From NCBI RefSeq assembly GCF_900113615.1, contig NZ_FOPZ01000001.1, forward strand, positions 310,001 to 374,000: a stretch of DNA of 64,000 nt, given 5' to 3'. Source of the stretch: Halorubrum aquaticum. Its GTDB lineage: Archaea > Halobacteriota > Halobacteria > Halobacteriales > Haloferacaceae. A program made the translations under genes and the position numbers. Under the pieces are notes generated by a model. The model searched no databases and was not told the DNA's origin. It worked only from the letters and a program-made list of their open reading frames with translations. Shown here one piece after another: positions 42,393 to 56,178 of this stretch (the first letter of the stretch is position 1; every line of letters begins with the position of its first letter).

Positions 42393-42773
42393 ATGGTACG
42401 ACACGTCACGACGGATGCGGGCTACGACAGCGACTTCCCCTTCTCACAGGGCGTGATCCACGGGGACACCGTCTACACGGCCGGCCAGATCCCGAAGGAC
42501 CCCGAGACTCGGGAAGTGATCGGCGAGACGATCGAAGAACAGACCCGCCAGACGTTCGACAACCTCGAGGCCGTCCTCGAGGCGGCCGGGACCTCCCTCG
42601 AGAACGTCGTGAAAACCACGGCGTTTCTGACCGACATGGACGACATCGAGGGATTCAACCGGGTGTACCGCGACCGGGTGCCCGAGCCCTACCCCGGACG
42701 GAGCACCGTCGAGGTCGCCGCGCTCGCGATCGACATCACGGTGGAGATCGAGATGGTGGCCGCCATCGAGTGA
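42393..42773 (+). CDS. RidA family (Rid) reactive intermediate deaminase
   Basis: 126 aa from the ATG at 42393. It deaminates reactive enamine/imine intermediates from PLP enzymes. Signature residues are PFSQGVIHGDTVYTAGQIP, NLEAVLEAAGTSLENVVKTT and YRDRVPEPYPGRSTVEVAAL, in which the Arg of PGRST is the catalytic carboxylate binder. It marks the last ordinary chromosomal gene before the accessory region. Confidence 0.94.
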   Translation: MVRHVTTDAGYDSDFPFSQGVIHGDTVYTAGQIPKDPETREVIGETIEEQTRQTFDNLEAVLEAAGTSLENVVKTTAFLTDMDDIEGFNRVYRDRVPEPYPGRSTVEVAALAIDITVEIEMVAAIE

Positions 42774-43324: not shown

Positions 43325-44137
43325 ATGGACGAAACGACCGCTCGGAAGCTGCTCTCAGAGATCGACGAACCGACGCAGCCGGCGCTACAAGAGCTACAGG
43401 AGACGGCTATCGACAGTGTTGAGACGGTCCTGTCGGACGCCGGCTTTCCGATTCGGGAAGAGGTCTGTCGCCGGCTCTCCTACACGTATTACTACGACTG
43501 GGAAACTGACGACCCGGACATCGTCCTCCTCGTACAGGATCCGGGAAACCTCCACGAACGCCACCTGTCGGAACTACGTCCTCACAACCCGCTTGCGGGC
43601 GAATGTTCTCCTCGCGAACAGATCGGCGTCTACCGCGAGTTCGGGAAGAGCTGGCTGACCGGGCGAAACGCCGATTTCACGGAGCGCTTTTTCGAGACGC
43701 TCGCTAGTCACGGACTCATCTCACTCCCGAACGGCTGGCATCACTACGTCGCGTCCGGAGACTTTTATCGAGACTTCTATCTCGGCGACGTCGTGAAGTA
43801 TCGCGTCGACGGATTCGGCACTGCTGCCGAGCGTGCCTCGTATCAGAGTTTGCTCGAACGTGAACTCCGAGCGTTGGACCCGGAACTAGTGATCACTTTC
43901 GGCGGCAACGCGTGGCCGGCGCTACGACGATCTACCACACCCGTACCCGTGGTAGATACGAATGCTGACCCCGACAGCATCATGTCCATTCACGGAACGC
44001 TCCACCAGATTTCCAAGCCGATCGACGCCCACGTACTTCCGTTAGCTCACATGAGTGGCCAAGTCTGGTGGCGGTTCCCTCCCGACGAGTACATTTCTCG
44101 ACTTAGTGAGGCTCTCGAAGTGTTCGAACGCCGGTAG
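43325..44137 (+). CDS. Uracil-DNA-glycosylase-superfamily-like protein
   Basis: 270 aa from the ATG at 43325. The fold markers are those of the UDG superfamily: motif 1-like DIVLLVQDPGNLHERH, a central PNGWHHY, LDPELVITFGGNAWPALR at the usual LxPkvivalG position, and motif 2-like LAHMSGQVWWRFPP, where UDGs have HPS and the DNA-intercalating loop. I do not recognise the exact subfamily, and the catalytic Asp/Asn is not certain. It has lower GC than neighbours and stands alone, consistent with horizontal gain, possibly a defence or repair cargo gene. Confidence 0.6.
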   Translation: MDETTARKLLSEIDEPTQPALQELQETAIDSVETVLSDAGFPIREEVCRRLSYTYYYDWETDDPDIVLLVQDPGNLHERHLSELRPHNPLAGECSPREQIGVYREFGKSWLTGRNADFTERFFETLASHGLISLPNGWHHYVASGDFYRDFYLGDVVKYRVDGFGTAAERASYQSLLERELRALDPELVITFGGNAWPALRRSTTPVPVVDTNADPDSIMSIHGTLHQISKPIDAHVLPLAHMSGQVWWRFPPDEYISRLSEALEVFERR

Positions 44138-44326
44138 CGAGAACTGACGGAGCGATTACCAACGCTGGGTCACACCGACACGAGCGACCACGCGCCGCCG
44201 CCGCGTGCCGTACGCACCGGGAGTGACCCCCCTATCTATACGTGTGCGTATCTGTCGTCGCCGCGATCGCGCCCCCGTCGAAAGACGTTCGAACCCGAGT
44301 CTGTTCGAAGGGCTGAGCGACGGAGT

Positions 44327-44662
44327 TCAGTTCCACTCATTCACGTTCACGACCGGCGGCAGATCAGTCGGCTCCGGTACCCACTCGATCACCTCCGCGA
44401 CGCAGTCGGCGATCGCGTAGGTATCCATCGTGTCATCGGCGTAGTAGAGGACCGGAACGTTCCCTCGTGTCTCCTTGTCGAGAAAATCAGTGTCGTGGGT
44501 GAGTACGAGGTAGCCACCCTCACGAGCGAACGTCGCGATCGAGTCGTCGTCGACTCCCTCGGAAAGTGCCTCATGGACGTGTTCGGCAGCGATCCCCTTC
44601 CCGCGGAGCGCCTCCGCGACTCGCGGACTCGTGTTCTCGTCGACGAGGACTCGGTACTCCAT
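44327..44662 (-). CDS. DUF5615 PIN-like toxin candidate
   Basis: 111 aa from the ATG at 44662. It has the PIN-like DUF5615 pattern: an early VLVDENTSPRVAEALR (acidic pair), DDDSIATFAREGGYLVLTHD and the adjacent TDFLDKETRG carrying the remaining acidic residues. Such proteins are predicted RNases. It starts 4 bp after the stop of the DUF433 partner, the standard layout of this toxin-antitoxin-like pair. Confidence 0.88.
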   Translation of the reverse strand: MEYRVLVDENTSPRVAEALRGKGIAAEHVHEALSEGVDDDSIATFAREGGYLVLTHDTDFLDKETRGNVPVLYYADDTMDTYAIADCVAEVIEWVPEPTDLPPVVNVNEWN

Positions 44663-44666
44663 CCGG

Positions 44667-44963
44667 TTACGCACTGTCGTCGTCTTTCAGTTCCGACAGC
44701 GACACCGCGCCCGCCTCCCGTGCCGCAGCCTCGCGTTCCGCCCGCCGGCGCTCGACCGCCGCCATCTCGTCGGGATGGCTGTGGTAGTACTGGAGCGCGC
44801 CGTACACGTCCGCCACGTCGAGCTCGAGCTGGTCGGCCACCTCCTCGGCTGACTTCCCGGCCCCCTCGACGAGCCCCTGAATCCGCCGGACGGTCACGCG
44901 CCGCCCCTCGATATGCGGCTCGTCGTGAACCTCGGTCACGATCCGAACCGACGACTGTGCCAT
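44667..44963 (-). CDS. DUF433 antitoxin candidate
   Basis: 98 aa from the ATG at 44963. The DUF433 domain is a short wHTH: EPHIEGRRVTVRRIQGLVEG, then KSAEEVADQLELDVADVYGA and LQYYHSHPDEM. A charged C-terminal tail (VERRRAEREAAAREAGAV) probably binds the partner DUF5615 protein and blocks it. This is VapBC-like pairing, by known association of the two families. Confidence 0.88.
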   Translation of the reverse strand: MAQSSVRIVTEVHDEPHIEGRRVTVRRIQGLVEGAGKSAEEVADQLELDVADVYGALQYYHSHPDEMAAVERRRAEREAAAREAGAVSLSELKDDDSA

Positions 44964-45155
44964 ACCCGCGAGTATCACCTGAGGCGGCATAAAACATCGC
45001 TCCACGGTTCTCCACCCGTTCCGATCAACCTCGGTCTGATCCGAGCCGATCGCGCACCTCACCCGATTCGAGCGCCCGCTCACCGCTCTGCCGCGTGATC
45101 ATCGAACCTCCGGGGAGCGATCTCACTTCCGATCAAAGACTCAAAAATCAAGTTT

Positions 45156-45238
45156 ATTGTCGTGTTTGTGAATGAGAATACATCGAATAAACACATTAAC
45201 CCCGTATTTTCAAGTTCGGTCGTGACAACGTGTAGTCG
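45156..45238 (+). promoter_or_regulatory. Duplicated upstream region, copy 1 (AbrB-like gene 1)
   Basis: From attgtcgtgtttgt at 45156 to the ATG is exactly 83 bp. The same motif lies exactly 83 bp before the second AbrB-like gene. Between them both copies keep a block of the type acccCGTgTcTTCAAGTT, whose TCAAGTT stretch is centred about 27 bp before the ATG and could be the TATA element. The whole control region was duplicated with the gene. Confidence 0.75.
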
Positions 45239-45496
45239 ATGTCGAGCGAGATTCGGAAGTTGCGAGATCTCGGCAACGGAAGCGGCGGGGTCACCATCCC
45301 TCGCGACACGCTCCGGAACTGGGGTCTCATCGATGACGACGACGAGTTGACCGACGCACACCTCCACATCCACGAGTCCGACGACGCCATCGAGGTCAGG
45401 CCGATCGGTCCGACTCCTGGAGGTTCCGACGACGACTCCTCGAAACCGAAGCGATCGACCGGCCGCTCGATCCCCGCCTCGAAGGCCGACCTGTAG
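45239..45496 (+). CDS. AbrB/SpoVT-like DNA-binding protein, copy 1
   Basis: 85 aa. The N-terminus is a swapped-hairpin AbrB fold (SSEIRKLRDLGNGSGGVTIP, RDTLRNWGLIDDDDELT). A variable acidic linker is followed by the invariant tail KRSTGRSIPASKADL. AbrB-like proteins dimerise and bind DNA, often as antitoxins or regulators. No toxin gene is adjacent, so it may be an orphan regulator. It is tandemly duplicated with the next gene. Confidence 0.82.
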   Translation: MSSEIRKLRDLGNGSGGVTIPRDTLRNWGLIDDDDELTDAHLHIHESDDAIEVRPIGPTPGGSDDDSSKPKRSTGRSIPASKADL

Positions 45497-45565
45497 CGAG
45501 CACGCCTCCCCTTTTACGACTGGTTGAACCCGTATTACCGATCGCACGACCAGAAAATCACTGCT

Positions 45566-45648
45566 ATTGTCGTGTTTGTTCGCCTGAATAGGTCTAAAAA
45601 GTACATTTACCCCGTGTCTTCAAGTTATACCGTGACGACGTGTACACG
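45566..45648 (+). promoter_or_regulatory. Duplicated upstream region, copy 2 (AbrB-like gene 2)
   Basis: The motif attgtcgtgtttgt recurs at 45566, 83 bp before the ATG at 45649, as in copy 1 (offset 410 bp). Conservation is best in the last 45 bp, including the TCAAGTT stretch and CGTGACgACGTGTA directly before the start codon. The part between is more diverged. Confidence 0.75.
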
Positions 45649-45903
45649 ATGCCCGGAGAGATCCGAAAGCTGAACGATCAGGGAAACGGAAGCGGCAGCA
45701 TCGTCATCCCGAAAGACGCCCTCCGCGAGTGGGGATTGGTCGACGAGGACGATGGCAGCGTGATGAGCGCGCACCTACACGTTACCACCTCAGACGACGG
45801 CGTCGTCATGCTCCAGCCGCTCGGCGAGATGGATCCCACGAACGACTCGCCGTCGAAGCGATCGACCGGCCGCTCGATTCCCGCCTCGAAGGCCGATCTG
45901 TAG
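45649..45903 (+). CDS. AbrB/SpoVT-like DNA-binding protein, copy 2
   Basis: 84 aa from the ATG at 45649, chosen by alignment with copy 1; an in-frame GTG three codons earlier is possible. The fold is the same (GEIRKLNDQGNGSGSIVIPK, ALREWGLVDEDDGSVM). The middle differs (DGVVMLQPLGEMDP) but the tail KRSTGRSIPASKADL is identical to copy 1. That pattern suggests the tail is the functional interaction surface. Confidence 0.82.
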   Translation: MPGEIRKLNDQGNGSGSIVIPKDALREWGLVDEDDGSVMSAHLHVTTSDDGVVMLQPLGEMDPTNDSPSKRSTGRSIPASKADL

Positions 45904-46298
45904 TTCCGCTCGTTTTCTCTCGTCGATCCGTTCGCTGACCGGTCACCCGAACTGTCCTCGACATCGAGTAGTTCGCTCGCTTCAGCCGATCGACGAGCGA
46001 GCTCGTCGTCGTCACCGTTTCACGGTGGTTCGTAACGTGAGGGGGTCCCCCCCTATGATTTCACTTCCCCACCCGCGCGTGCGTAAGCGTCACGACCGCG
46101 AGAGAGATCGGCATCTTGAGCGAGCGGTCGTCAGATTCCGAAAAACGGCCTTGTTGAAATCCTCGCCCGGTGGTAGGTTTCTGCGGGCGTGCTGAATACA
46201 GAGCGCATAATCAGCACAGAATAAGCTACAAATAGAACAGGTAGAATCGGTCAGTATAGAGCTTATAGTCACATGATTCAGGAGTAGCAAAGCTCAAC
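45904..46298. other. Gene-free stretch between AbrB pair and RNase HI remnant
   Basis: About 395 bp without a convincing gene. It holds a C-rich/TATA-like block near 46045-46085 (loosely like blocks at 48494 and 48649), and a segment near 46150-46230 whose tail (gctgaatacagagcgcat) looks like non-coding or insertion-sequence-derived DNA. I cannot identify a terminal inverted repeat or a transposase. Confidence 0.4.
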
Positions 46299-46660
46299 GA
46301 TGGCGCTCGTCCGAATCCCATCCTGTAGCTGTCGAGTACATTATAGAGACTGACGGCTGAACCGGAGGGGGTAGCGAACACTTCGGGGAATCAGCCAACA
46401 ACCGAATCCAGTGCCACTCCCTCATCCGAGGGTTAGAGGTCGTGTCGGAGCAGGGGATGTTCCGGGGTTGAAGCGAGAGGTGACTCCGAGATAATTGTGA
46501 AGCAAGTTCGTGGTGAGTATGAAGTGAAACAGCCAGAACTCCGTCCACTACGTGACCGCGTACAAGAGTTGACGAGTTCGAGCAATTCGAGATACAGCAC
46601 ATTCCGTGAGAGGAGAACTGGGAGTCAGACGAGCTGGTTGACCGAGCCTTCGACGACTGA
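46299..46660 (+). pseudogene. Decayed archaeal RNase HI (RVT_3-type) gene
   Basis: Joining fragments across three frames gives an RNase HI: DGARPNP (46299-46319), then PVAVEYIIETDG, SEHFGESANNRIQCHSLIRG and LEVVSEQGM (46322 on), then VEARGDSEIIVKQVRGEYEV and KQPELRPLRDRVQEL (from about 46467), then EQFEIQHIP, stop, EENWESDELVDRAFDD (46580-46660). The family signatures DG..NPG, TNN.AEY..LI.GLE, GDSELVVKQ..G.Y and H..REEN..AD.L are all there in order. The gene has in-frame TGA at 46358 and 46607 and at least three frameshifts (near 46320, 46470 and 46575), so it is dead. Confidence 0.85.
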
Positions 46661-46718
46661 GTGGGACTAACTTCGAGATCGGTGCTATCTGGGAATATCT
46701 CCGTGAAGTGGATACTAA

Positions 46719-47111
46719 TTATTCCAATTTTTTTGATAGAATCCTTGATATTTTTATATCGTCACCTTCCTCTTCTACTAATTGCCTAGAAGTAAGAACT
46801 CTCATTATCCAATTGATTTTATGTGTGGGTATTTCAGAACCGGGTGGTTCTGATTGTATTTCTTCCTTTGTTACTGGGCCATTGTCAATAATGTACGATA
46901 GAACATTAATGTATTTTGGTTTATCCTCTTCGTATGACGTAGGAATTTCGTCTGAATAAAATATTTGTTTGTTTTCTTCCGGTAAATCTTTGATATCCTC
47001 TTCTGAGAGTCCTAGTATTGGAACAAATTCATCTTCGTCAGTATTTGTCGCTTCTTTTATTTCCTTTTCGAATGTATTGAATATTTCGGTGAGACGTTCC
47101 TTGTCTGGCAT
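46719..47111 (-). CDS. AT-rich orphan protein with possible C-terminal winged helix
   Basis: 130 aa from the ATG at 47111. It has a normal-looking acidic protein sequence, but the DNA is strikingly AT-rich against the GC-rich surroundings and uses A/T third positions throughout. The N-terminal half is helical (MPDKERLTEIFNTFEKEIKE); the C-terminal half (INVLSYIIDNGPVTKEEIQS, KINWIMRVLTSRQLVEEEGD) looks like a winged helix. I do not recognise a family. The base use marks it as acquired from a low-GC source, for example a haloarchaeal virus or plasmid. Confidence 0.65.
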   Translation of the reverse strand: MPDKERLTEIFNTFEKEIKEATNTDEDEFVPILGLSEEDIKDLPEENKQIFYSDEIPTSYEEDKPKYINVLSYIIDNGPVTKEEIQSEPPGSEIPTHKINWIMRVLTSRQLVEEEGDDIKISRILSKKLE

Positions 47112-47632
47112 AAACAGAAATAGTTAGAGATAACACAAGTACTTACCGAAAAATAACAACTAGGTTAGATGATTTCGTCCTAATTACTGTTCTATAGCGC
47201 CCGGTTGTCATAGGATTATATGGAGGGATTGAACGAGTGATGCCGTATCTGGGAAACACCCCGTGTACCTCAGTTGATGACCGACGAGACAGCACGGTTG
47301 TGTTGGATATCAAAACTTTCGAACTCTCTCACGCTACGTAACTTTCGCCGAAGGTGTCGCTGGTGGTTCGACAGACTTTCAGTATGGTCATCTCCCATAC
47401 GTGACTCCATCAGAGGAGTGTCCCTCGTCCCACTTCTGACGCATCTGGTCAAAGGCTCGGAAGCAGTCATCCATCAACTGCTGAATATACTCTCTGTATC
47501 TCGCACACCGATTCTATCACTGGTTGAGGATTTCAATAGAATCAAAAATCCACTTCCAGTCTCGACAAACGCTTCACAACGAGTGAATCGTCGGTTCGCG
47601 GCTCGCGAGCAATTCGAACGGCCGAACTGCGA
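47112..47632. other. Gene-free stretch upstream of AT-rich orphan
   Basis: About 520 bp of intermediate GC with no convincing complete gene. On the minus strand around 47400-47510 a stop-free run reads like protein (REYIQQLMDDCFRAFDQMRQ, KWDEGHSSDGVTYGR) and may be a remnant of a lost gene; it has no start and I cannot name it. Confidence 0.4.
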
Positions 47633-48052
47633 CTACGCAGATCCATCGCGGAATCGATCGATCGGCACGTCGGCGATCTCGTCGTAGTCGTCGTCACCAC
47701 CGACCAGAAGCGTCCCCTCGACGTGGTCGGCGGTCGCCAGCGCGAACGAGTCGCCGAGTGCCGGGTTGTACCCGAGAATGTACTCCGACGCCTCTAGCCA
47801 TGCGTCGGCGACATCTACCGGCTCGATGCCGAGGTCGATCAGCCAGTCGAGATACTCGTCGGCCGTGTCGCGGTCGTACTTCCGAGCGAGCGTGTACCGC
47901 ACTTCGGTGAAGTTCACGTAGCTCGCGTAGCCGGTGGTGTCCTCGACGGCGACCGCGTCGAGATACTCCTCGACGACCTCGCTGCCAGGTTCGTTGTCGG
48001 CGTGCGCTATCAGCGGCTCGGCGTCGAAAACGACACAGTCAGGCAGCGTCAT
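47633..48052 (-). CDS. PIN-domain toxin (VapC-like)
   Basis: 139 aa from the ATG at 48052. PIN-domain acidic residues are in place: CVVFDAEPLIAHAD (first Asp), a central YASYVNFTEVRYTLARKY (Glu), LGDSFALATADH (two Asp) and LLVGGDDDYDEIAD at the end. VapC toxins cut RNA. The start ATG overlaps the antitoxin stop (ATGA), so the pair is translationally coupled. Confidence 0.92.
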   Translation of the reverse strand: MTLPDCVVFDAEPLIAHADNEPGSEVVEEYLDAVAVEDTTGYASYVNFTEVRYTLARKYDRDTADEYLDWLIDLGIEPVDVADAWLEASEYILGYNPALGDSFALATADHVEGTLLVGGDDDYDEIADVPIDRFRDGSA

Positions 48053-48354
48053 CACTCCTCCGTCGAGAACTCCGCCTCGCGCTCTTCGCGGTCCTGCTCG
48101 CGCTTCTCGTTGAGGATCTCGGTCGCCGACCGGTCCGTGCTCGCCTCGCTTCGGGCGGCAAACCCGCGCATCTCGCTCGGCGAACGGACGTGTTCGACGA
48201 TCACCTCTCCGTCCTCGGTCTCCCGAAACACCACCTTTCCGGGGGCCTCGATCCCGAGTTTCTCGCGGAACCGCTTCGGGATAGTCGCCTGACCGTGCTT
48301 GGTGACGGCGACGATCTCTTTTTCAGAGTCGTTTGTATTCTCTGTCTTACTCAT
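48052..48354 (-). CDS. AbrB-family antitoxin (VapB-like)
   Basis: 100 aa. The AbrB/MazE swapped-hairpin is in the middle (VAVTKHGQATIPKRFREKLG, PGKVVFRETEDGEVIVEHVR) and the charged C-terminus (SATEILNEKREQDREEREAE) would wrap the PIN toxin. Encoded immediately upstream of it and coupled by a 4-base overlap. Such pairs stabilise plasmids and islands. Confidence 0.92.
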   Translation of the reverse strand: MSKTENTNDSEKEIVAVTKHGQATIPKRFREKLGIEAPGKVVFRETEDGEVIVEHVRSPSEMRGFAARSEASTDRSATEILNEKREQDREEREAEFSTEE

Positions 48355-48493
48355 TATTCATAATTCTAGAGCGTTCATAGGTAAACGTTTCGCGCATCTC
48401 CAGGCGGTTACCGTTCACTCTGCGGGGCGAGCCGACCACACCGTCCACCTACAGACGAGACTACATCGTTCCTGGCGATTCGGTCCGTTCCCT

Positions 48494-48528
48494 ACCCCCT
48501 CCCCCTCACTTCCCATTATATACGCGCG
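48494..48528. repeat. C-tract/TATATACGCGCG repeat, copy 1
   Basis: The block accccctccccctc is followed by acttcccattatatacgcgcg. It shares with copy 2 the two C-rich runs and TTATATACGCGCG with about the same spacing. The two copies are 155 bp apart. The TATATA core suggests a promoter-like or protein-binding site. Confidence 0.7.
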
Positions 48529-48648
48529 GGCGTGGGTCAGATTCTCGGCAGGCAGCAGAGACGCCGAACCGGCCCATCTCGAAACGACGAATATCGTGAT
48601 CCGGAGAGATCTCGAGGTGACCCTCGATCACGTTCGATCGCACGGCTC

Positions 48649-48687
48649 ACCCCCCTCCCCCTCCCCTTCTCTTATATACGCGCGCGC
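48649..48687. repeat. C-tract/TATATACGCGCG repeat, copy 2
   Basis: acccccctccccctcccc is followed by ttctcttatatacgcgcg and more CG repeats. The alternating purine-pyrimidine run TATATACGCGCGCG could flip to left-handed DNA under supercoiling in high salt; that is inference. Confidence 0.7.
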
Positions 48688-48784
48688 AGGGGGTTCGCTG
48701 AGAGCGGCCGCGCGAGGTTCGGTACCGACCGATCTTAGAATCCGATATCTCGGAAAATAGCGAATGGCCGGACACCGACCCAGG

Positions 48785-49396
48785 TCAGACGCGGTCGATG
48801 TGGTCGTAGACGCGTTCTGTCGTTTGGATGCTCGCGTGTCTGAGCCGGTTCCGCACGTCGTAGAACGAGTTCCCCTCCTCGACGTTGAGCATCCGATACG
48901 CGACGCTGTGCCGCAGCGTGTGCGGCGTCACGTCCGCCGGGTCTCCTCGGCCGGTGAGCGTCAGCGGACGCACGTCGGCCGCGACAGCCGCGTCTCGCAC
49001 GACGTTCCGAACCGACTCGGTCGACATCCGGTCGGCCTGCCGCGACGGCCAGAGCGCCGCAGTGTCCTTCCACCGGCTCGCGAGGTACATTCGGAGCGTT
49101 CGCACCGTCTCGTCGGCGAGCTCGATCTCGGTGTAGCTCGGCGACCGATCGGTCGGGTAGTCCTTCTGGAGGTCCGCCGGCAACGCGATCACCCCGTCGT
49201 CGAGGTCTAGGTGGTCGTCGACGTCGAGCGCGATCGCCTCGCTGACGCGAAGCCCCGTGTCGTACAGCGTCGCGATCAGTGCGTCGTTGCGAGCCGCGAG
49301 GTACGTCGCGCTCACTTCCACGGTCGCGCTTCGCATCTCGTCGACCTGGTCCGGCTTCAGCCAGACGGTCGCTTTCTCCTGAGTTTGGGTTTCCAT
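48785..49396 (-). CDS. Short tyrosine site-specific recombinase/integrase
   Basis: 203 aa, essentially only the catalytic domain. Catalytic residues: Arg50 (LYDTGLRVSEA), His159 and Arg162 (PHTLRHSVA), His187 (RLRHASIQTTERVY) and the nucleophile Tyr197; Lys78 (LQKDYPTDR) is the likely fifth. There is no N-terminal SAM-like core-binding domain, as in some haloarchaeal pleolipovirus and plasmid recombinases. It is likely to have integrated the neighbouring element. Its first codons (METQTQ) lie within a repeat that recurs 72 bp upstream, so it may autoregulate. Confidence 0.92.
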   Translation of the reverse strand: METQTQEKATVWLKPDQVDEMRSATVEVSATYLAARNDALIATLYDTGLRVSEAIALDVDDHLDLDDGVIALPADLQKDYPTDRSPSYTEIELADETVRTLRMYLASRWKDTAALWPSRQADRMSTESVRNVVRDAAVAADVRPLTLTGRGDPADVTPHTLRHSVAYRMLNVEEGNSFYDVRNRLRHASIQTTERVYDHIDRV

Positions 49397-49486
49397 ATTT
49401 CTATGTGTTTCGAGGTGGGTTGTTTATAAGTGGTACAGCGAAGTGAAGCGGTGAGTTTGGGTTTCTATAACAAGAATCCCAAACTC
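49381..49486. repeat. Direct and inverted GAGTTTGGG repeats around recombinase start
   Basis: gagtttgggtttc occurs at 49381-49393, spanning the first codons of the recombinase, and again at 49453-49465 in its upstream region. An inverted copy of its core, cccaaactc, lies at 49478-49486, making a 9-bp inverted repeat with a 16-bp spacer. These could be binding sites for an autorepressor or for the recombinase itself. Confidence 0.8.
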
Positions 49487-49647
49487 GTCTTAGCCGTTGT
49501 CACACCCTCCGCAGTTTCGTAAACTGCCTCATTTGTGTCCACGGCCGAACCCGTGCCGTTCCACCACCGTAGGCCCAGACCGTCGCACCGAGTAGGTGTT
49601 CACGGGCGATCGCAGTCCGGCTTCGATCGATGCTCCCGGTAGATTCG
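49397..49647. other. Intergenic control region of the recombinase and 3' end of the gene train
   Basis: About 250 bp. The recombinase promoter must lie here; on the minus strand a TATA-like ttataaac is at about 49420-49432. The rest, up to the stop of the small membrane protein gene, has only low-quality open frames and I see no gene in it. Confidence 0.5.
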
Positions 49648-49929
49648 TCACTCGCCATCGTACACCTCCGGCTCGAGACGCTCTCGTGTGTCGCACAGTC
49701 GCTGCCAGACGGCTACTGCGATCTCTGCTCCACGGAAGAGTCCGTACATCAATCCCGCCGCTACGAGGTAGAACGTCGCGATGAACGGATACACCACAAG
49801 TAGCGGTGTGAGCCGAACCCGGCCGTAGGCCGTCCGCTGCCGCCACTCGCTCCACAAGTGCGCAACATCACAGCGTACGCCGTCCACGATAGCGAAGAAC
49901 GCCTCCGGGAGCTCCTCACTCGTCGCCAT
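49648..49929 (-). CDS. Small membrane protein of the integrated element
   Basis: 93 aa with a hydrophobic stretch at about 41-70 (LTPLLVVYPFIATFYLVAAG), probably one long or two short transmembrane segments, and soluble ends. Its start overlaps the end of the Topo VIA-like gene by 14 bp. I do not recognise a family. It is the last gene of the long element operon. Confidence 0.65.
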   Translation of the reverse strand: MATSEELPEAFFAIVDGVRCDVAHLWSEWRQRTAYGRVRLTPLLVVYPFIATFYLVAAGLMYGLFRGAEIAVAVWQRLCDTRERLEPEVYDGE

Positions 49930-50938
49930 CGGTCACCTCCAGAGCATCTCGGTCGATCTCGATACACTCGGCGAGTTGCTCTCGGCGATCGCGGATTCGG
50001 TTCTCGACCTCGTGTTTCTTCTCCAGGTCGACGTGCTCCTCGATCGCGTCGCGGACGAGGTCCTCGAGGAACTCCCGTTCGAACTCTTTCAGCGCGTTCA
50101 GTTCGACGTTGGTGTCGCGGCCGTCCGAAACGTACCGACGGAACGACCGCTTGATCGTCGCGTCCTTGTCCGAGGACGATGGTACCGGATTCTCGGGGAG
50201 TTCGAACCGCTCGATGTGCTCGGTGTTCAGTGCTTTCCGCTCGAGCGCGAAAGTACCGTTACCGCCTTCGAACCAGAACGGAGCCCCGTATTCGGCGTCG
50301 TAGTAACGCGGGTCGTCGGATCCCGGGAACTCCCGACCGAGGTCGATGCCGTAGTACCCCATCGCGTCGAGGATGCTGACAGGGGCGTGGAACCCGGACG
50401 GATTGTAGTCGCCGAAGTAGAGGATCCGGACATCCTTTCCATCGCTGATCTTCTCGATGAGTCGGTTACTCGCTTGGTAGACCTTGGAATCCGACCAATC
50501 TCCGCGAGTTGCCTCCAGCCGGACGTTGAACTCCTCACAGACGGGCGCGAAGACGGACGCGAGGCTTTGCTTCTCGAGCCAGACCTCGACGTACGACTCC
50601 TGCTCGCGCCAGAAGTCCTCCCAGTAGTCGTTCCACACCTTGTCGACCCGGTCGTCGACGAAGTGTTTGGGATCGCGCCAGCCCGTCGCCGAGACGTTCT
50701 CCGCCGTCCGCGAGGCGTCGACGATCTGTGCGGGGTCGATGTAGCCCGCTCGGCGTCCCTTCTTGACCGCCCGCTTCACATAGCGGTACTCCCACTTGTG
50801 ACCGCGAGATTCGAGCGCGTAATAGACGTCGCGAACGGTGCGCTCCTCGCCCGAGGACAGCACGTCCTGTATCTGCGAGAGGATAGCCTGATTCTTCCTG
50901 CCGGGGTTCCACTCGCCCTTCGTCGTCTCACTCGCCAT
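49916..50938 (-). CDS. Topo VIA/Spo11-like Mini-A protein with altered Toprim motif
   Basis: 340 aa from the ATG at 50938; an ATG one codon earlier is equally good. The N-terminal winged helix carries VRDVYY (35-40), the position of the catalytic Tyr in Topo VIA/Spo11. A Toprim domain follows: Glu122 in EVWLEKQSL and the acidic motif FGDYNPSG (175-182), where Asp-x-Asp-Pro has become Asp-x-Asn-Pro. Free-standing Topo VIA homologues without a B subunit, called Mini-A, have been described in mobile elements of haloarchaea and others. No ATPase B subunit is present here. It probably breaks or binds DNA during element replication or segregation. Confidence 0.82.
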   Translation of the reverse strand: MASETTKGEWNPGRKNQAILSQIQDVLSSGEERTVRDVYYALESRGHKWEYRYVKRAVKKGRRAGYIDPAQIVDASRTAENVSATGWRDPKHFVDDRVDKVWNDYWEDFWREQESYVEVWLEKQSLASVFAPVCEEFNVRLEATRGDWSDSKVYQASNRLIEKISDGKDVRILYFGDYNPSGFHAPVSILDAMGYYGIDLGREFPGSDDPRYYDAEYGAPFWFEGGNGTFALERKALNTEHIERFELPENPVPSSSDKDATIKRSFRRYVSDGRDTNVELNALKEFEREFLEDLVRDAIEEHVDLEKKHEVENRIRDRREQLAECIEIDRDALEVTDGDE

Positions 50939-51224
50939 CATCTCCCCCCGTGGCGGCGATTCCAACGCCGAACTGTTTCTGGAGGTAGGACTCCAACGGG
51001 AGCGTCCGACCCTCCCAGTAGTAGTAATGCGACTCACCGATGAATTCGGTCTCCTTGAGTTTCGACGGGTCCCTAGGAGCGTCGGTCTCGATGTCGAACA
51101 CTTCGATCGCCTTCGCGAAGCCTGCCGCGTAGGACTTTTCGAGACCCTCCCACACCTCGTCGGTTTTCTCCTCGTACGCTTCGAACCGATCGGTCTCGCC
51201 TCCGGATCGATCACTCGACATCAT
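50928..51224 (-). CDS. Element hypothetical protein upstream of Mini-A
   Basis: 98 aa from the ATG at 51224 (a second ATG follows at once). It is acidic, with an aromatic-rich centre (ESHYYYWEGRTLPLESYLQK). No family is recognised. Its end overlaps the Mini-A start and its start lies inside the zinc-ribbon gene's end, so it is embedded in the operon and likely cotranslated. Confidence 0.65.
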   Translation of the reverse strand: MMSSDRSGGETDRFEAYEEKTDEVWEGLEKSYAAGFAKAIEVFDIETDAPRDPSKLKETEFIGESHYYYWEGRTLPLESYLQKQFGVGIAATGGDDGE

Positions 51225-51345
51225 TCACCACCCTAACGTCATCGGAGCCGCAGTTCGGGCACGGATCGGGGATCTTGCCGTCGTTCGTGGGAGTTGCGCG
51301 TCCAAGCCATCCACATCCGTCGCACTCGACGGATTCGAGAGTCAT
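51211..51345 (-). CDS. Tiny zinc-ribbon protein 1 (44 aa)
   Basis: 44 aa: a single zinc ribbon with CDGCGWLG at the front and CPNCGSDD at the back, so four Cys at 8, 11, 29 and 32. The start ATG overlaps the stop of the upstream gene (ATGA) and its end overlaps the next start by 14 bp, which is strong evidence that it is a real, coupled gene. The function is unknown; ribbons of this size usually bind nucleic acid or a protein partner. Confidence 0.75.
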   Translation of the reverse strand: MTLESVECDGCGWLGRATPTNDGKIPDPCPNCGSDDVRVVNDVE

Positions 51346-51764
51346 ACCTCACCCCCAACCGGAACGGGATCAGTACCACAGACGTTACAGTAGAGCCATT
51401 CTACACCGTCCCTACGCAACTCGCCGATTATCTGCTGGTTGCCGTAGTCGTGATCCTCGTCGGTACAGCCGTTTGGGCATTCAACTCGCTCGAGACCTCC
51501 GTCGACTTCCTCACCGCCGTCGGTTCGGAGATTGTGGTCCCCCTGCTCGTCGAGAGCGAGCTGTACCTCGACAGCCGCTTCGCTCAACTTGTCGACGAAC
51601 TCCTCCGTCGTCACCTCTACCGCGGCCATACTCTCCGAGCCGTGGAACTCCATGATCGGCCCATCTGCGTCCGGGCCGGGATCCCGAATACCGATTCCTT
51701 CGAGTTCTCCGATCCACTCTCCTGAGCGACGGAAGTCGGTGTTATCGTCGTTCTCACCCTTCAT
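51342..51764 (-). CDS. Element protein with C-terminal zinc ribbon
   Basis: 140 aa. An acidic N-terminal region (about 1-90) is followed by a C-terminal zinc-binding part: ECPNGCTDEDHDYG and WLYCNVCGTDPVP, four cysteines with a short His-bearing loop. No wider family is recognised. Its start overlaps the end of the 56-aa gene and its end the start of tiny zinc ribbon 1. Confidence 0.7.
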   Translation of the reverse strand: MKGENDDNTDFRRSGEWIGELEGIGIRDPGPDADGPIMEFHGSESMAAVEVTTEEFVDKLSEAAVEVQLALDEQGDHNLRTDGGEEVDGGLERVECPNGCTDEDHDYGNQQIIGELRRDGVEWLYCNVCGTDPVPVGGEV

Positions 51765-51924
51765 AGCCGGTATCCACCTCCTCGATCCGATGGGCCGGGA
51801 ACAGCATCGGCCCGAACGGTTCCGTCCCGCAGCGGACCCAGCCGCTCGAGAGGATCTCCACCTCCTCGTAGACGCTCGCGTAGCCCTCGTCGAAGTGGAC
51901 TTTCACGTTCTCGTAGACCGTCAT
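51754..51924 (-). CDS. Small element protein (56 aa)
   Basis: 56 aa. It reads MTVYENVKVHFDEGYASVYE and then EVEILSSGWVRCGTEPFGPM, with beta-strand texture and a single Cys. It fills the gap between HNH and the next gene exactly, with an 11-bp overlap downstream and a 12-bp gap upstream. No family is recognised; such small genes are typical of haloarchaeal virus-like operons. Confidence 0.65.
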   Translation of the reverse strand: MTVYENVKVHFDEGYASVYEEVEILSSGWVRCGTEPFGPMLFPAHRIEEVDTGYEG

Positions 51925-51936
51925 ATCTCACCCCTC

Positions 51937-52458
51937 TCAGACTTCGATCGGCTCTCCGTCGCATTCCCGTCTCGCGCACTCCAGACACCGCTCACCGGCG
52001 AATCCGGGCGATGTCGCGAGCAGCTCCGCGACATCACCGCAGCCGTCACAGATGTCCTCGTCGGAGATTCCGGCCGCCCGGCGTTCCCGTTCTCGTTTCT
52101 CGTCTTCGGCCCACGCTCGGACCTCTTGCTGCGTGATCGACGCGTGGCGAGCATGTTCCACCGGCTCGAGGTTCTCTCCCCGGTTGTCCCACTTGATCCC
52201 GTTGCGGTGATGGACATCCTTCTCCGAGAGATCGTCGAGGACCGACTCAATCGGTTCCTCGAGCGGGTAGCACTCGACGATCGCGAGCAGCCGGTGGTGT
52301 GCGACGTAGACGTCTTCGCGTCGCTCTCCCGGCGTGTGCGGTCGGTATTCGGTCGATCGCCAGCGCTCGTAGCCTGCTCCGCTCCCGTGCCCCGGCTTCG
52401 CGTGTTCGAACCGAGCGTACCGCTGTACGCGGTTCGAACCGTAATGATAGCTCGGCAC
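51937..52458 (-). CDS. HNH endonuclease with C-terminal zinc ribbon
   Basis: 173 aa. The HNH core is DVHHRNGIKWDNRGENLEPV (about 90-112) preceded by VYVAHHRLLAIVE; the His-His and Asn-Asn pattern matches the HNH_3 group often carried by phages. A C-terminal CDGCGDVAELL ... CLECARREC adds a zinc ribbon. It begins 7 bp after the PCNA-like gene. It could be a homing-type nuclease or a structural element nuclease. Confidence 0.88.
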   Translation of the reverse strand: MPSYHYGSNRVQRYARFEHAKPGHGSGAGYERWRSTEYRPHTPGERREDVYVAHHRLLAIVECYPLEEPIESVLDDLSEKDVHHRNGIKWDNRGENLEPVEHARHASITQQEVRAWAEDEKRERERRAAGISDEDICDGCGDVAELLATSPGFAGERCLECARRECDGEPIEV

Positions 52459-52465
52459 ACCGTCA

Positions 52466-53320
52466 TCACTTCCTCTGGATCCGCGGAGCGAGCATCATCA
52501 TCACGTGACCGAGATCGTCCGCGAAGTCGTAGTAGATCTTCACGGGCATCTCCTCGGAGAACTCCACTCGAAGCTCTGTGCCGCTCTTCAGCGGCTTCAG
52601 GATTCCCGCGTACTTGCTGCCGCTCGTCGAGCCGCCGACCAGGTACGGAAGCGAGTACATTCCTACTGCGTCCGCGTCGAACGTCGCGTTCGGCAGTTCG
52701 TCCGCTCCGAGAACCGTCTGAATCTCGTCGGTATCTCCGTGGCCGCGAACGGCCAACGCCTCCTCGTCGACCATCGATTCGAACTTGACATGGTCGCTGA
52801 CGAGTTCCGCATTCTCCACTGCGTCAGTGATCACACCCGCATCGGCTGTGAACTCCACCGAGTGATCGATATCCGGGATATCGGGTTCGTCACGGATCGT
52901 CTTCGGGTCGATCCCCGACATCTCGACTTCGACGTTCGTGTGATCGATCTCGATCGACCGCGTCTCGGGTCGGTACGTGAACGTTACCGGGTCATCCCCG
53001 CTTGCGCTGCCGATGTAGTCGTCGAGCCGCTGGAGATTCAGCCCGATCGGGAACATCCCGTCACCCACTGATTCGAACGCACCAGGTTCGACCTCAACGT
53101 CGACCATGCCGACGTTCGCGGGATCGACGGCTGCGACCGACAGCCCCTCGTAACCGATCCGGAAGATCGCCTCGTCGACGACCGTCAGCAGTTGGTCGAC
53201 CACCTGCTGGAGCACTTCCGCGCGGATAACGACCGTCAGACTGTCGACTGCTTCCGTTTCCGTTCCTGCGGTCGCCGCGTCGCCGTCTCCAACCGCGTCT
53301 TCAGCGTCAGCGGCCGCCAT
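52466..53320 (-). CDS. PCNA-like sliding clamp encoded by the element
   Basis: 284 aa. After a 25-residue acidic extension comes a complete clamp: VVIRAEVLQQVVDQLLTVVD, DEAIFRIGYEGLSVAAVDPAN (the conserved DPANV turn), GDGMFPIGLNLQRLDDYIGS, the interdomain stretch, and a C-terminal strand GHVMMMLAPRIQRK. A chromosomal PCNA must exist elsewhere, so this is a second, element-borne clamp. PCNA genes occur in several haloarchaeal tailed viruses and plasmids. It would recruit the host replicative polymerase to the element. Confidence 0.92.
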   Translation of the reverse strand: MAAADAEDAVGDGDAATAGTETEAVDSLTVVIRAEVLQQVVDQLLTVVDEAIFRIGYEGLSVAAVDPANVGMVDVEVEPGAFESVGDGMFPIGLNLQRLDDYIGSASGDDPVTFTYRPETRSIEIDHTNVEVEMSGIDPKTIRDEPDIPDIDHSVEFTADAGVITDAVENAELVSDHVKFESMVDEEALAVRGHGDTDEIQTVLGADELPNATFDADAVGMYSLPYLVGGSTSGSKYAGILKPLKSGTELRVEFSEEMPVKIYYDFADDLGHVMMMLAPRIQRK

Positions 53321-53625
53321 CAGACACCACCTCCGAGGTCGTCGTCGGTCGCGTCTTCGCCCTCGGTACTCTCGTCGCTCTTGGTAGTATCGTCACTCAT
53401 GGCCGGTGTCTCCGCGAATCGCTCAGTCGTCCGCTCGATGCTCTCCGGCACGCCACGCAGCGTCTGCTCCAACTCGGCAGCGGAGATCCCCGCCGGCGCT
53501 TCGACGAGAATCGAGACATCGCCCTTCTCCACGCTCGCCAGTGCCCGGTCACCGACAACGTCGATGTCGAGGACCGCCGGATGTTCCGTCGCCGCCGTCT
53601 CCGGCGTCGGATCACTCGTCGCCAT
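53320..53625 (-). CDS. Acidic element hypothetical protein
   Basis: 101 aa, very acidic with a Ser/Thr/Asp-rich C-terminal third (DDTTKSDESTEGEDATDDD). A short amphipathic middle (AELEQTLRGVPESIERTTER) may be helical. Its stop shares one base with the PCNA start, implying coupling to it. No family is recognised. Confidence 0.65.
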   Translation of the reverse strand: MATSDPTPETAATEHPAVLDIDVVGDRALASVEKGDVSILVEAPAGISAAELEQTLRGVPESIERTTERFAETPAMSDDTTKSDESTEGEDATDDDLGGGV

Positions 53626-54130
53626 CGGCCACCTCCATCCCGGCCGCCGCCAGCTCGTCGAGTCGCTCGCGTGCCTCGCCGCCGTCAGCGACGGCTTCTT
53701 TCGACGCCGAGGGTTCGACCGGACTTTCCGTCTCGGTCGGTTCGTCGTCGTTCTTTCCGACGACGATCGAGACGTGGTGGATCCCTTGGTGGAGCGCGAT
53801 CACGTCCTCGCGCTTCAGCGGCTGGATCACCACTTTCCGAACCGCCTCCTTCTGGATGTTCAGATGGTTTGCGAGAATCGACTCGGCCGTTCCGAGTTCG
53901 ATCCGGCCGCCGACTCCGGTCCACTCAACGAGCTTTCGATGGCCTTCCTCCGCCTTCACCGGCAGGCCGCTGTCGTAGACTGTCTCGACATCGTCGTCTC
54001 CGGCGTACGTCGTCGCGACCGCGTGCCGCAGTGCGTCGGCCAGCGACCCGTGTTCTTCTTCGGCCTCCTCGAGAGCGGCGAGAAGCCCCTCGTCACGGAT
54101 CGTCGCCTTCGCGACTCGTGACTCACTCAT
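53612..54130 (-). CDS. Element hypothetical protein with acidic tail
   Basis: 172 aa. The first 110 residues look folded (ATIRDEGLLAALEEAEEEHG; LVEWTGVGGRIELGTAESIL; KEAVRKVVIQPLKREDVIAL), possibly with an HTH-like segment. The rest is acidic linker and helix. It overlaps both neighbours by 8 to 14 bp. Function unknown. Confidence 0.65.
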   Translation of the reverse strand: MSESRVAKATIRDEGLLAALEEAEEEHGSLADALRHAVATTYAGDDDVETVYDSGLPVKAEEGHRKLVEWTGVGGRIELGTAESILANHLNIQKEAVRKVVIQPLKREDVIALHQGIHHVSIVVGKNDDEPTETESPVEPSASKEAVADGGEARERLDELAAAGMEVADGDE

Positions 54131-54719
54131 TGAGCATCACCTCCTCCGCCTCAATGACTTCTTGAAACGCCTTCCGGCTCCCTCCGTTGTCCGGGTGATT
54201 CTTCGCTTTCAGCGACCGTGCGGCCGCTTTCACCACTGTATCCGGCGCGTCCGGAGAGACATCGAGCACTTCGTGAGCCGGCGTTGCCGAACTACTCTCT
54301 GCGACGACATCACCATCGCTCGCGTCGCCCGGCGGAAGTCGTGCTGCGGCGAATTCGGAGTCGCCCGTTCGAACCGGACGGGTCCCCCGCATCCGGGTCT
54401 CATGGACCCACTTGTAGACGGTCCGGACGTTGTCTCGAAGCCGTGGCGACGCGTCGCAGGCCACCGCGAACGACTCGCCGTCGTCAGTCCATCGAAGGAC
54501 GAATCCCGGATCGTCCGGGTTCGCGTTGTGGAGCGGCAGTCCGTTCGACTTCGTGTGAGCGTTCGCGATGGACGCCCGCCAGTTCTCGACGTCCATCCGT
54601 CCCATCTCCGTCGAGAGGTCCTGCGTCGTGGTCGCGAGCGACGCCTCGAAGCTCCGGTTCGGCTCGCGCTCCGCTTCCGGTGTCCGCTCGAAGCCCGCCG
54701 GCCACTCGAAACGGCTCAT
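54123..54719 (-). CDS. Element protein with C-terminal J-domain
   Basis: 198 aa. The last 50 residues are a J-domain with an HPD tripeptide (SLKAKNHPDNGGSRKAFQEV), the signature that stimulates Hsp70 ATPase. The N-terminal 130 residues are not a known J-protein partner domain. Viral J-proteins (for example polyoma T antigen) recruit host Hsp70 to remodel replication complexes; a similar role here is inference. It overlaps the tiny zinc-ribbon gene upstream by 4 bp. Confidence 0.82.
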   Translation of the reverse strand: MSRFEWPAGFERTPEAEREPNRSFEASLATTTQDLSTEMGRMDVENWRASIANAHTKSNGLPLHNANPDDPGFVLRWTDDGESFAVACDASPRLRDNVRTVYKWVHETRMRGTRPVRTGDSEFAAARLPPGDASDGDVVAESSSATPAHEVLDVSPDAPDTVVKAAARSLKAKNHPDNGGSRKAFQEVIEAEEVMLNE

Positions 54720-54853
54720 GCCGACACCTCCAGACTACCGCCACACCGCCAGCAACACGGAGCTTCAGCGGGATTCGACCGGCCGCAGTCGGTACAGTCG
54801 CTCCGAAGACCGAAGATCCCTCCCCAAAGCCGGTAGGTCGCACCGGCGCTCAT
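54716..54853 (-). CDS. Tiny zinc-ribbon protein 2 (45 aa)
   Basis: 45 aa. An N-terminal aromatic stretch (YRLWGGIFGLRSD) precedes a zinc ribbon CTDCGRSNPAEAPCCWRCGG with paired cysteines. The stop overlaps the J-domain gene's ATG (ATGA). It is the first gene of the longer operon half; the repeat-rich control region lies directly upstream. Confidence 0.72.
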   Translation of the reverse strand: MSAGATYRLWGGIFGLRSDCTDCGRSNPAEAPCCWRCGGSLEVSA

Positions 54854-55121
54854 CGGTCCACCCCCCAACGCCTGCGAGCGGGCCCACGGCCGCATAATGC
54901 GCGGCGGCGCGCGCGCCGCATAAAGTCCGCGCGCCGTCGCACGGATGCGTCACGTGGGCAGCGATTTCGACGCACCCCCGTACCCTCGTACGACTTTCTA
55001 AATCCGGTTCGAGACGGCTTGAAGGCCGGAATAATCGCTGAATCGGTGTCGTACGACGGGGTCGCGGAGTCGTACGACTCGTACGCTCCAGTTGTTCCAC
55101 ACGAAACAGTGGAAACGGAGG
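54854..55121. promoter_or_regulatory. Control region with phased TCGTACGA palindromes and GC hairpins
   Basis: About 268 bp without a gene between the two halves of the element gene train. It has three TCGTACGA palindromes centred at about 54989.5, 55052.5 and 55073.5 (the last a perfect 14-bp palindrome GAGTCGTACGACTC at 55067-55080), a GC-rich inverted repeat near 54897-54925 (gcgcggcggcgcgcgcgccg), and two TATGCGG direct repeats on the minus strand that may include the promoter of the downstream genes. It is a candidate operator or origin. Confidence 0.65.
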
Positions 55122-55589
55122 TCATCGGTCGACACCCCCGTCGGCCGCGACCGGCTGACTCGTCTCGGCGTCGACGCGATCGTGTTCGACATCGTCGACG
55201 GTGAGCCACCACGGCGGCGAGAGGTGCGTCCGACCGGTGTCGAGGTCGGTGACGCCGAGGTCGTCACGACTCCAGTGCCACCAGAGTAGCGCAACGTGAG
55301 CGCACCAGCCGCGGAAGCGGTAGCCGTCGCAGTCGCATTCGGCGACGAGGTCACCCTCGTAGACCGCGAACAGCACACGGTGCCGTGAGAGCGCCGTCTC
55401 GTCGTCCTCACGGCCGAGCAGCACGTCGAACTCGGCAGGGTTCACAGCTCCGATCGTCGACCGTGCGGCCTGTGCGCGCCGCCAGCTGGAGGACGTGGTC
55501 CATCCATCCGGGAACTGGAGCTGGTCGGGTTCGCCGAGACGGTTCGCGATCTCCTCGCGCTGTTCGTCGACTGCGGTCTCGGCGTTCAT
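55122..55589 (-). CDS. SWIM zinc-finger protein of the element
   Basis: 155 aa. The SWIM signature Cx1Cx(n)CxH is clear in AECDCDGYRFRGWCAHVALL (about 97-115). Flanking sequence (SSWRRAQAARSTIGAVNPAE; LSRHRVLFAVYEGDLVAE) is beta-rich as in haloarchaeal SWIM proteins. SWIM fingers bind DNA or protein and occur in transposase and recombination factors. Start overlaps the end of tiny zinc ribbon 3. Confidence 0.88.
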   Translation of the reverse strand: MNAETAVDEQREEIANRLGEPDQLQFPDGWTTSSSWRRAQAARSTIGAVNPAEFDVLLGREDDETALSRHRVLFAVYEGDLVAECDCDGYRFRGWCAHVALLWWHWSRDDLGVTDLDTGRTHLSPPWWLTVDDVEHDRVDAETSQPVAADGGVDR

Positions 55590-55693
55590 AGCGCACCCCC
55601 GTAGCTACACTCGGGACACGCGTCGTAGGGGATCGCGCTGCCGGGCTTCGAGGTTCGCGTCAGCTTCGCTCCGCAGTCCGGACAGTACCTCAT
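55586..55693 (-). CDS. Tiny zinc-ribbon protein 3 (35 aa)
   Basis: 35 aa, almost nothing but a zinc ribbon: MRYCPDCGAKL at the start and DACPECSYGG at the end, four cysteines as two CxxC pairs. Both ends overlap neighbours by 4 bp (ATGA at each junction), which argues for a translated, coupled gene. Function unknown. Confidence 0.72.
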   Translation of the reverse strand: MRYCPDCGAKLTRTSKPGSAIPYDACPECSYGGAL

Positions 55694-56031
55694 GGCGGCG
55701 AACACCTCTTCACGAAGTTCCCGACGCCACCCGCGTGCCTGTCCTCGATGTGCTGTCGGATCGCGTCGTGAACCGCCTGCTCACCGCAGCGGATCTTCGA
55801 AATCCACTCGTCTTCGTCGAACCGCGTGTTCACCGCGTAGTACCGCGTCTCGTCGTCGACGATCTCGCGAATGTAGCCGCTCCAGCCGGCGCTGTCCTGC
55901 CAGAGACGAAGCTCACCGTTCGCGTTGAACAGCTCCGAGATGTTCAGTTCACGACGCTCTTCGACGACGGCGCTCGCTGCGTTCTCGTCGGTGTCGAGAT
56001 CGACATCGATCTGCCGCTCGACGCTGCTCAT
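55690..56031 (-). CDS. First gene of the element, hypothetical
   Basis: 113 aa. It starts MSSVERQIDVDLDTDENAAS, with a plausible ribosome-binding sequence ggaggtg just upstream. It has an acidic N-terminus and an aromatic middle (LRLWQDSAGWSGYIREIVDD). No family is recognised. It lies next to tRNA-Lys and leads the minus-strand operon, so it may be regulatory (for example an excisionase or repressor), but nothing in the sequence proves that. Confidence 0.65.
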   Translation of the reverse strand: MSSVERQIDVDLDTDENAASAVVEERRELNISELFNANGELRLWQDSAGWSGYIREIVDDETRYYAVNTRFDEDEWISKIRCGEQAVHDAIRQHIEDRHAGGVGNFVKRCSPP

Positions 56032-56105
56032 GACGCCACCTCCGAGTGACCTCCGGATCGACCGAAAAATACATCTAGGAGGCCTCTATCCTTTATTAAC
56101 GGAAC

Positions 56106-56178
56106 GGGCCGGGCGCGATTTGAACACGCGACCGACGGATTAAGAGTCCGTCGCTCTCCCTAACTGAGCTACCGGCCC
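56106..56178 (-). tRNA. tRNA-Lys (anticodon CUU)
   Basis: 73 nt folding into a complete cloverleaf: acceptor GGGCCGG pairs with CCGGCCC, D-loop GCTC...GAGC, anticodon stem ACGGA/TCCGT holding CTCTTAA (anticodon CTT), T-arm GCGTG-TTCAAAT-CGCGC. There is no CCA encoded. Its 3' end faces the element, the usual polarity for tRNA-targeted integration. It is the boundary between accessory DNA and chromosome. Confidence 0.97.

Follow-up and report, generated by a model that had tools for sequence, protein, structure and literature searches.

What kind of element lies beside tRNA-Lys(CTT) in the genome of Halorubrum aquaticum? The stretch of DNA that we analysed, hereafter the window (64,000 nucleotides of contig NZ_FOPZ01000001.1; the genome is G000 in our collection), carries there a series of minus-strand genes encoding a tyrosine recombinase, a Topo VIA-like Mini-A protein, a PCNA (a putative second copy), an HNH nuclease, a J-domain protein, a SWIM protein and several zinc mini-proteins. 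An initial annotation, made from the sequence, had tentatively read this series as a compact virion-less element of an undescribed type. The named genes are real and stand on one strand next to the tRNA (ARAGORN, Pfam, PHROGs and hhalign), and they do form a tRNA-linked, virus-derived set of replication-helper genes. The locus is an island that resembles the mosaic virus/plasmid loci called ViPREs and is built on a simulovirus chassis. We think it likely that this copy, which is truncated and probably locked, belongs to a group of Halorubrum tRNA-targeted integrative elements that share this chassis with Simuloviridae-type (SNJ1-like) proviruses.

The insertion at tRNA-Lys is larger than the gene cluster and lacks one end

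ARAGORN found a single tRNA in the window, the intact tRNA-Lys(CTT) at 56105-56178 (minus strand), the 3' end of which (56105-56120) is the 16-nt attachment (att) core AATCGCGCCCGGCCCG. In the relative G008 the site is empty: a RidA-like gene lies ~370 bp from tRNA-Lys, with no element DNA between them. Because the RidA-like gene ends at 42773 in the window, the whole insertion spans ~42774-56104, and not the 48785-56178 of the initial annotation. Its left end is placed by the empty site and by the drop in GC content, from ~0.69 outside to 0.48-0.66 between ~43 and 56 kb. Repeat and pattern searches of the window revealed no tRNA repeat or second att copy on the left, and a pattern search of the whole G000 genome found the core only once. 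Loci L072, L076, L089 and L090 mark the tRNA-Lys site as a hot spot of integration: it is free in G008, holds other cargo in G335, and in H. cibi another integrase adjoins the RidA-like gene at a contig end. The H. cibi integrase is 30-40% identical to the full-length integrases described below and belongs to another type of element.

We searched 391 haloarchaeal genomes and 52 Halorubrum genomes for relatives of the island. Pairs of the tRNA-Lys att core are found 19.2 kb apart in G206, 23.6 kb in G186, 36 kb in G209, and 11.4 and 8.6 kb in G010, and the 3' end of tRNA-Tyr occurs twice, 20.3-21.4 kb apart, around three proviruses (in G193, G010 and G186). The core is single in G000 and in G204. 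In the att-bounded relatives, the distal att copy is adjoined by a full-length integrase (346-366 aa), in which weak Pfam matches point to a SAM-like and a catalytic domain; none is present in the window or at the G204 copy. These integrases are 90-96% identical within elements at tRNA-Lys, 92-95% within those at tRNA-Tyr and 86% within those at tRNA-Pro-GGG, whereas they share 27-40% identity between targets. The recombinase of the window, a 203-aa protein that we call INT203 (48785-49396, minus strand; PF00589, E=5e-23), is 83-97% identical to its homologues whatever the tRNA target. The choice of target therefore goes with the full-length integrase. The initial annotation had the element end at its recombinase, but INT203 is an internal gene, and we ruled it out as the integrase setting the left border since it does not track the tRNA target. 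Given the single att core and the absence of a full-length integrase, the window copy is truncated, and probably locked in that it would be unable to excise by recombination between two att copies.

These results also bear on the idea, put forward in the initial annotation, of a small self-contained plasmid-like element lying between INT203 and the tRNA. It finds a parallel in contig C7 of G010, where an 8.6-kb stretch between att copies carries INT203 only. However, this copy has an assembly gap and an insertion sequence (IS) remnant at its INT203 end, INT203 is untied to the target and internal in proviruses, and no att copy adjoins it in the window. We consider such an element very improbable.

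INT203 is 47-50% identical to Int2 of phiCh1, phiH and ChaoS9 over 95% of the protein, and it was found in ~18 places at 84-100% identity. Two 42-nt copies, 81% identical and C-rich, then TATATACGCGCG, lie between the recombinase and VapB genes (48495-48536 and 48651-48692). Similar sequences are present in other elements, and they are possibly promoters or INT203 recombination sites.

The chassis is shared with SNJ1-like proviruses

Leftward from tRNA-Lys, 16 minus-strand genes run to position 48785. Most overlap by 1-16 bp, much as initially described, but not end to end, as two intergenic gaps of 226 and 251 bp interrupt them. We compared 25 loci gene by gene. The parts that recur, counted from the tRNA, are o113, the SWIM protein, o172, o101 and INT203. 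The J-domain protein, the PCNA-HNH pair and Mini-A are variable, each being missing from many relatives, and the replication cassette first proposed is therefore not a fixed set. In several relatives the slot of Mini-A holds a C5 or N6/N4 DNA methyltransferase. The elements target tRNA-Lys, Pro-CGG, Pro-GGG, Tyr, Val and Ala. In all 10 genes measured between the window and its relatives, dN/dS ranged from 0.07 to 0.49 (at dS of 0.19-0.93), and the gene products have therefore been kept by purifying selection. These values, together with the recurrence of the gene order in many other Halorubrum loci, show that the cluster is not a chance assembly.

Elements of three types have this module next to the tRNA. 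Type A is virion-less and includes the window and copies in G204, G209 (two), G186, G193, G206, G012, G201 and G010, as well as copies lacking INT203 in G170, G107 and G372. Type B gathers Simuloviridae-type proviruses at tRNA-Tyr or tRNA-Ala, in which the genes after INT203 encode a packaging ATPase and a major capsid protein (MCP) that are 33-35% and 30-35% identical, respectively, to those of SNJ1, HJIV1 and NVIV1. Type C encodes a serine recombinase together with a secreted protein of 485 aa and a row of membrane proteins. In the tree of INT203, the copies of type B are separated from those of type A (split support 93/94). In G038, from another family, PCNA, HNH, SWIM and o172 genes are found together with homologues of the SNJ1-type ATPase and MCP. 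Three of the proviruses at tRNA-Tyr have 20-bp direct repeats at their ends and are apparently complete: G193:C41:126030-146374 (L128+L152), G010:C4:70639-91701 (L129+L151) and G186:C134:9636-31094 (L133+L153).

The initial annotation had itself named what would speak against an undescribed type, namely that the genes be a fragment of a larger known family whose other parts are lost. This is largely what we observe for the window copy, since its integrase and attL are missing and larger proviruses contain the same module alongside genes for an SNJ1-type packaging ATPase and capsid.

These comparisons show how an intact element is organised, and from them we propose how it may work. It starts at the tRNA and its att site with an early operon read away from the tRNA, followed by INT203, a late slot, regulators, the full-length integrase and the second att site. 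The early operon comprises o113, SWIM, o172 and o101, with the J-domain protein, PCNA-HNH, and Mini-A or a DNA methyltransferase as options; the late slot holds virion genes in some members and defence or cargo genes in others. The sequence suggests that the full-length integrase inserts the circular element at the 3' end of the tRNA, which the att core restores. After excision, the circle would be copied by the host replisome, and host replication proteins would have to do so because the window has no recognisable Rep, polymerase or helicase. Judging from their families, the clamp of the element may load the host polymerase and thereby favour element DNA at the host replisome, HNH and Mini-A may nick or relax DNA and manage its topology, and the J-domain protein may recruit host DnaK, which would then remodel replication complexes or those of a repressor. 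The window copy keeps intact early genes and a toxin-antitoxin cargo.

Several points weigh against our interpretation. The genes of the window are intact, INT203 retains by eye the R, K, HxxR, H and Y residues, and the copy might still be mobile through INT203 or in trans. The comparison of att sites uses draft genomes for several copies, and in G010:C7 one att lies next to the assembly gap and the IS remnant. As for the chassis, o113 and o172 are only 34-41% identical between simulovirus-type and virion-less elements, so that the common descent of the whole is putative, as are the roles of PCNA, HNH, Mini-A and the J-domain protein in replication.

Maintained lineage, relics or satellites?

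The initial annotation had reported no capsid, spike, terminase or recognisable Rep, and this was borne out by Pfam, PHROGs and direct comparisons of the window with virion modules, both SNJ1-type and head-tailed ones as well as further candidates, none of which revealed a virion gene. The window and 12 other loci gave no match to any tested virion module. The window has no match to the packaging ATPase, and the simulovirus MCP matches neither the window nor the rest of its genome. No HUH RepA was found in the window, where the SWIM protein is the sole one to match the SNJ1 and HJIV1 genomes. Queries with the HSTV-1 head proteins and with TerL and portal of HCTV-2 had no match in the window, which lacks a recognisable terminase, portal or HK97 capsid.

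The best example of a virion-less element is the G206 copy. It lies in a one-contig genome, is bounded by att copies over 19.2 kb, and none of its genes, all of which we listed, is a virion gene. Besides INT203, the early module and regulators, it carries a gene for a type IIG-like restriction enzyme and an uncharacterised gene pair shared with the accessory part of the pleolipovirus Harhisp1. Since such att-bounded relatives exist, the class of virion-less integrative elements is real, as the initial annotation supposed, even if the stretch in the window is not a complete compact member of it. Type IIG restriction genes or a candidate defence gene called by PADLOC occur in other copies or in their neighbours within the same tRNA array. 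Some of these arrays, several of the longer ones, possibly consist of two adjacent elements, which is clearly the case in G010:C7.

It could be argued that ordinary integrated viruses lost their virion genes many times independently, leaving the early modules as relics. The window copy fits this scenario in being truncated, with a broken distal gene, and related proviruses with virion genes do exist. Yet some 12 virion-less copies keep open early genes, some copies are att-bounded and have a full-length integrase, and the virion-less copies of INT203 fall outside the provirus clade. The early genes that were measured are under purifying selection, which supports a maintained virion-less lineage over repeated decay only. 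We regard repeated decay as possible but doubtful.

A second alternative is that the virion-less elements, among them the window copy in its untruncated state, form a satellite lineage with its own integration and replication-helper genes, packaged in the particles of an SNJ1-like helper sharing its chassis. Relatives such as G206 are indeed integrated mobile elements without virion genes, even though the window copy lacks attL. The size of the G206 copy (19.2 kb) is close to that of the 20-21 kb proviruses, the INT203 tree splits the virion-less elements from the simulovirus-type proviruses, and the late slot carries defence or toxin-antitoxin genes. Virion-less elements are also present in 4 of the 6 genomes with a simulovirus MCP (hypergeometric P=0.02, uncorrected and ignoring kinship). 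However, this co-occurrence is at most suggestive and takes no account of phylogeny, the genome of the window itself has no simulovirus MCP, and the two groups differ in their tRNA targets and integrases. On balance, packaging by such a helper seems unlikely to us. The wider proposal, that the virion-less Halorubrum elements, with their own clamp, Mini-A or methyltransferase, and J-domain protein, are satellites of integrated SNJ1-like membrane viruses and use helper particles to spread genes for defence and toxin-antitoxin systems, with the window copy as a truncated member, is in our opinion a little less likely still.

Relation to known viruses and elements

We compared the island, which we read as a truncated element on the simulovirus chassis, with the systems closest to it. 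In the parts of PMC3622292 that describe them, ViPREs, which among described categories come closest to the island, are mosaic virus/plasmid loci with an integrase, lying between a tRNA and its partial copy. The window is such a mosaic, with a Mini-A of HCIV-1 type, a PCNA-HNH pair of HSTV-1 type, a J-domain protein of HCTV-2 type, a SWIM protein of HJIV1 type and a recombinase of phiH type. It differs in having no partial tRNA, given the one att core of G000, a feature that is present in G206, G186, G209 and G010. Moreover, the two att-flanked ViPREs described in those parts of PMC3622292 lie at tRNA-Ala with genes of pleolipoviruses or of SNJ1, and the chassis of INT203 and o113-o172 is not mentioned there. 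In the open-licence literature that we searched, neither the INT203 chassis nor its virion-less members are described, scans of IMG/VR with HNH, Mini-A and the J-domain protein returned no relatives, and no near match was found among plasmids.

The Simuloviridae (SNJ1, HJIV1, NVIV1) share the SWIM protein with the window, relatives of whose module lie inside proviruses with SNJ1-type ATPase and capsid. The window differs from them by its lack of capsid, ATPase and RepA, although the HUH RepA is a feature of SNJ1 and HJIV1 and not of NVIV1. Simuloviruses as described live as episomes, and in Natrialbales only (PMC12642351); the integrated proviruses of Halorubrum thus extend the family. The Mini-A of the window is 58% identical to that of Haloarcula californiae icosahedral virus 1 (HCIV-1, Sphaerolipoviridae), but this is a lytic linear virus with a clamp domain in its virion protein VP1 and not a separate clamp (PMC4958249).

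Tailed haloviruses resemble the window in several genes: PCNA-HNH is as in HSTV-1, the J-domain protein as in HCTV-2 and BJ1, INT203 is like int2 of phiH/phiCh1, and the clamp is similar to that of CGphi46. The window differs from all of these in having no terminase, portal or head genes. The L segment of phiH (pPhiHL) is a 12-kb virus segment with an int2-type recombinase and pcnA that is able to live as a plasmid. It differs in its repH and repressor genes, its lack of Mini-A and J-domain protein, and its gene order. Virion-less archaeal satellites that use a helper virus are exemplified by pSSVx and pSSVi, whose fusellovirus helpers are from Sulfolobales and whose genes are unrelated to those of the window.

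In our interpretation, a single chassis of integration and early genes is common to whole membrane viruses and virion-less islands of the same archaeal genus, and in its late slot capsid genes and a cargo of defence or toxin-antitoxin genes can take each other's place. It extends SNJ1-type viruses to integrated proviruses in Halorubrum. It also opens two questions to testing: how virus replication modules, such as the archaeal Mini-A and the viral-type clamp, are maintained in the absence of virion genes, and whether satellites of membrane-containing icosahedral viruses exist in archaea.

Genes of the early operon

All genes of this operon are on the minus strand, and we describe them from the tRNA outwards. 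The first, o113 (55690-56031), encodes a conserved protein found at the same place in at least 11 elements and 34-41% identical to the copies of SNJ1-type proviruses. It is followed by a 39-aa zinc ribbon (55586-55705; weak zinc-ribbon Pfam matches, 100% identical in G204) and by the SWIM zinc-finger protein (55122-55589), which matches the annotated SWIM protein of HJIV1 with an hhalign probability of 99% and is present in 14 of the 52 Halorubrum genomes. A relationship of the latter to BJ1 gp10 was not supported (hhalign probability 1.3%). Two optional genes come next: a zinc-ribbon-like open reading frame (ORF) of 59 aa (54716-54895; profile matches) and the J-domain protein (54123-54719), which matches PF00226 slightly below the cut-off (E=1.4e-5) and is 50% identical to HCTV-2 gp5 and 39% to BJ1 gp5. 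Two core proteins follow, o172 (53612-54130; 20 of the 25 loci) and o101 (53320-53625; 15 of the 25 loci). The first is probably DNA-binding, judging from its ribbon-helix-helix-like N-terminus. The AlphaFold models of o172 and o113 were too poor for use (pLDDT of 47 and 48).

The PCNA-like sliding clamp (52466-53320; PF00705) is an optional module, 34-37% identical to the clamps of CGphi46, HSTV-1 and phiH. The HNH nuclease (51937-52458; PF13392, phrog_27281) is also optional, was found in 14 genomes, and travels with PCNA, to which it is adjacent in the same pairing as gp40-41 of HSTV-1. In four relatives, a 267-aa protein (c23; L123:14398-15201 and homologues) is encoded near the J-domain gene; three of them lack PCNA-HNH and the fourth has HNH only. 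This protein is clamp-like by eye, but hhalign gave no support for a divergent clamp (probability 2.5%).

Four small genes separate HNH from Mini-A: o56 (51754-51924; 96% identical in G170), the Cys-rich o140 (51342-51764; 88% in G170), a 44-aa zinc ribbon (51211-51345; weak Pfam matches) and o98 (50928-51224; 86% in G170). Mini-A (49916-50938; phrog_6247, E=6e-93) is optional, and its 58% identity to the HCIV-1 protein is to gp35. It was identified in four Halorubrum genomes and in one of another genus. It keeps the TVRDVYY, VWLEKQS and GDYNPSG blocks, and thus both the 5Y-CAP and the Toprim motifs. Pfam scans of the genes neighbouring Mini-A gave no match to a TopVIB-like B subunit. At the time of PMC8185306, none of the archaeal Mini-A proteins had been assayed. 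The last gene before INT203 encodes a 93-aa protein (49648-49929; 75-95% identical in relatives) predicted to have a single membrane segment, as the G206 homologue has one hydrophobic stretch.

Cargo and distal end of the window copy

Beyond INT203, the cargo starts with a toxin-antitoxin pair on the minus strand, formed by a VapB/MazE-type antitoxin (48052-48354; PF04014) and a VapC/PIN toxin (47633-48055; PF01850). A winged-helix-like protein with a weak match to TrmB (46719-47111, minus strand) is 92% identical in G107. On the plus strand lie two tandem AbrB-like paralogues (45239-45903), named by inspection as they have no Pfam match, with related copies in many elements; a direct repeat (45144-45342 and 45554-45752) corresponds to the tandem duplication of this gene, the copies being 70% identical. 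A second likely antitoxin and toxin are encoded on the minus strand by a DUF433 gene (44667-45083; PF04255) and a gene for a DUF5615 PIN-like protein (44327-44674; PF18480). They are followed by a protein of the uracil-DNA-glycosylase superfamily (43274-44137, plus strand; PF03167). The distal end is the remnant of a GIY-YIG-like nuclease gene, named by inspection (42832-43202, minus strand), which suffered an internal deletion of ~300 bp; its two blocks align to a single ORF of 288 aa in G204.

Type C modules

The type C module, with its 485-aa secreted protein, several membrane proteins and serine recombinase, is found at L080:1-6085 and also in L115, L116 and L120, with a distant copy in L081/L082. 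It has no known viral match, and the secreted protein of H. cibi gave no phage match. It is possibly a novel virion or vesicle module, perhaps Halfvol2-like. Of 145 haloarchaeal genomes, 19 encode the secreted protein. At L081:16777-18358, in another genus, a gene for Mini-A directly adjoins tRNA-Ala, and a relative of the 485-aa secreted protein is encoded in the same region.

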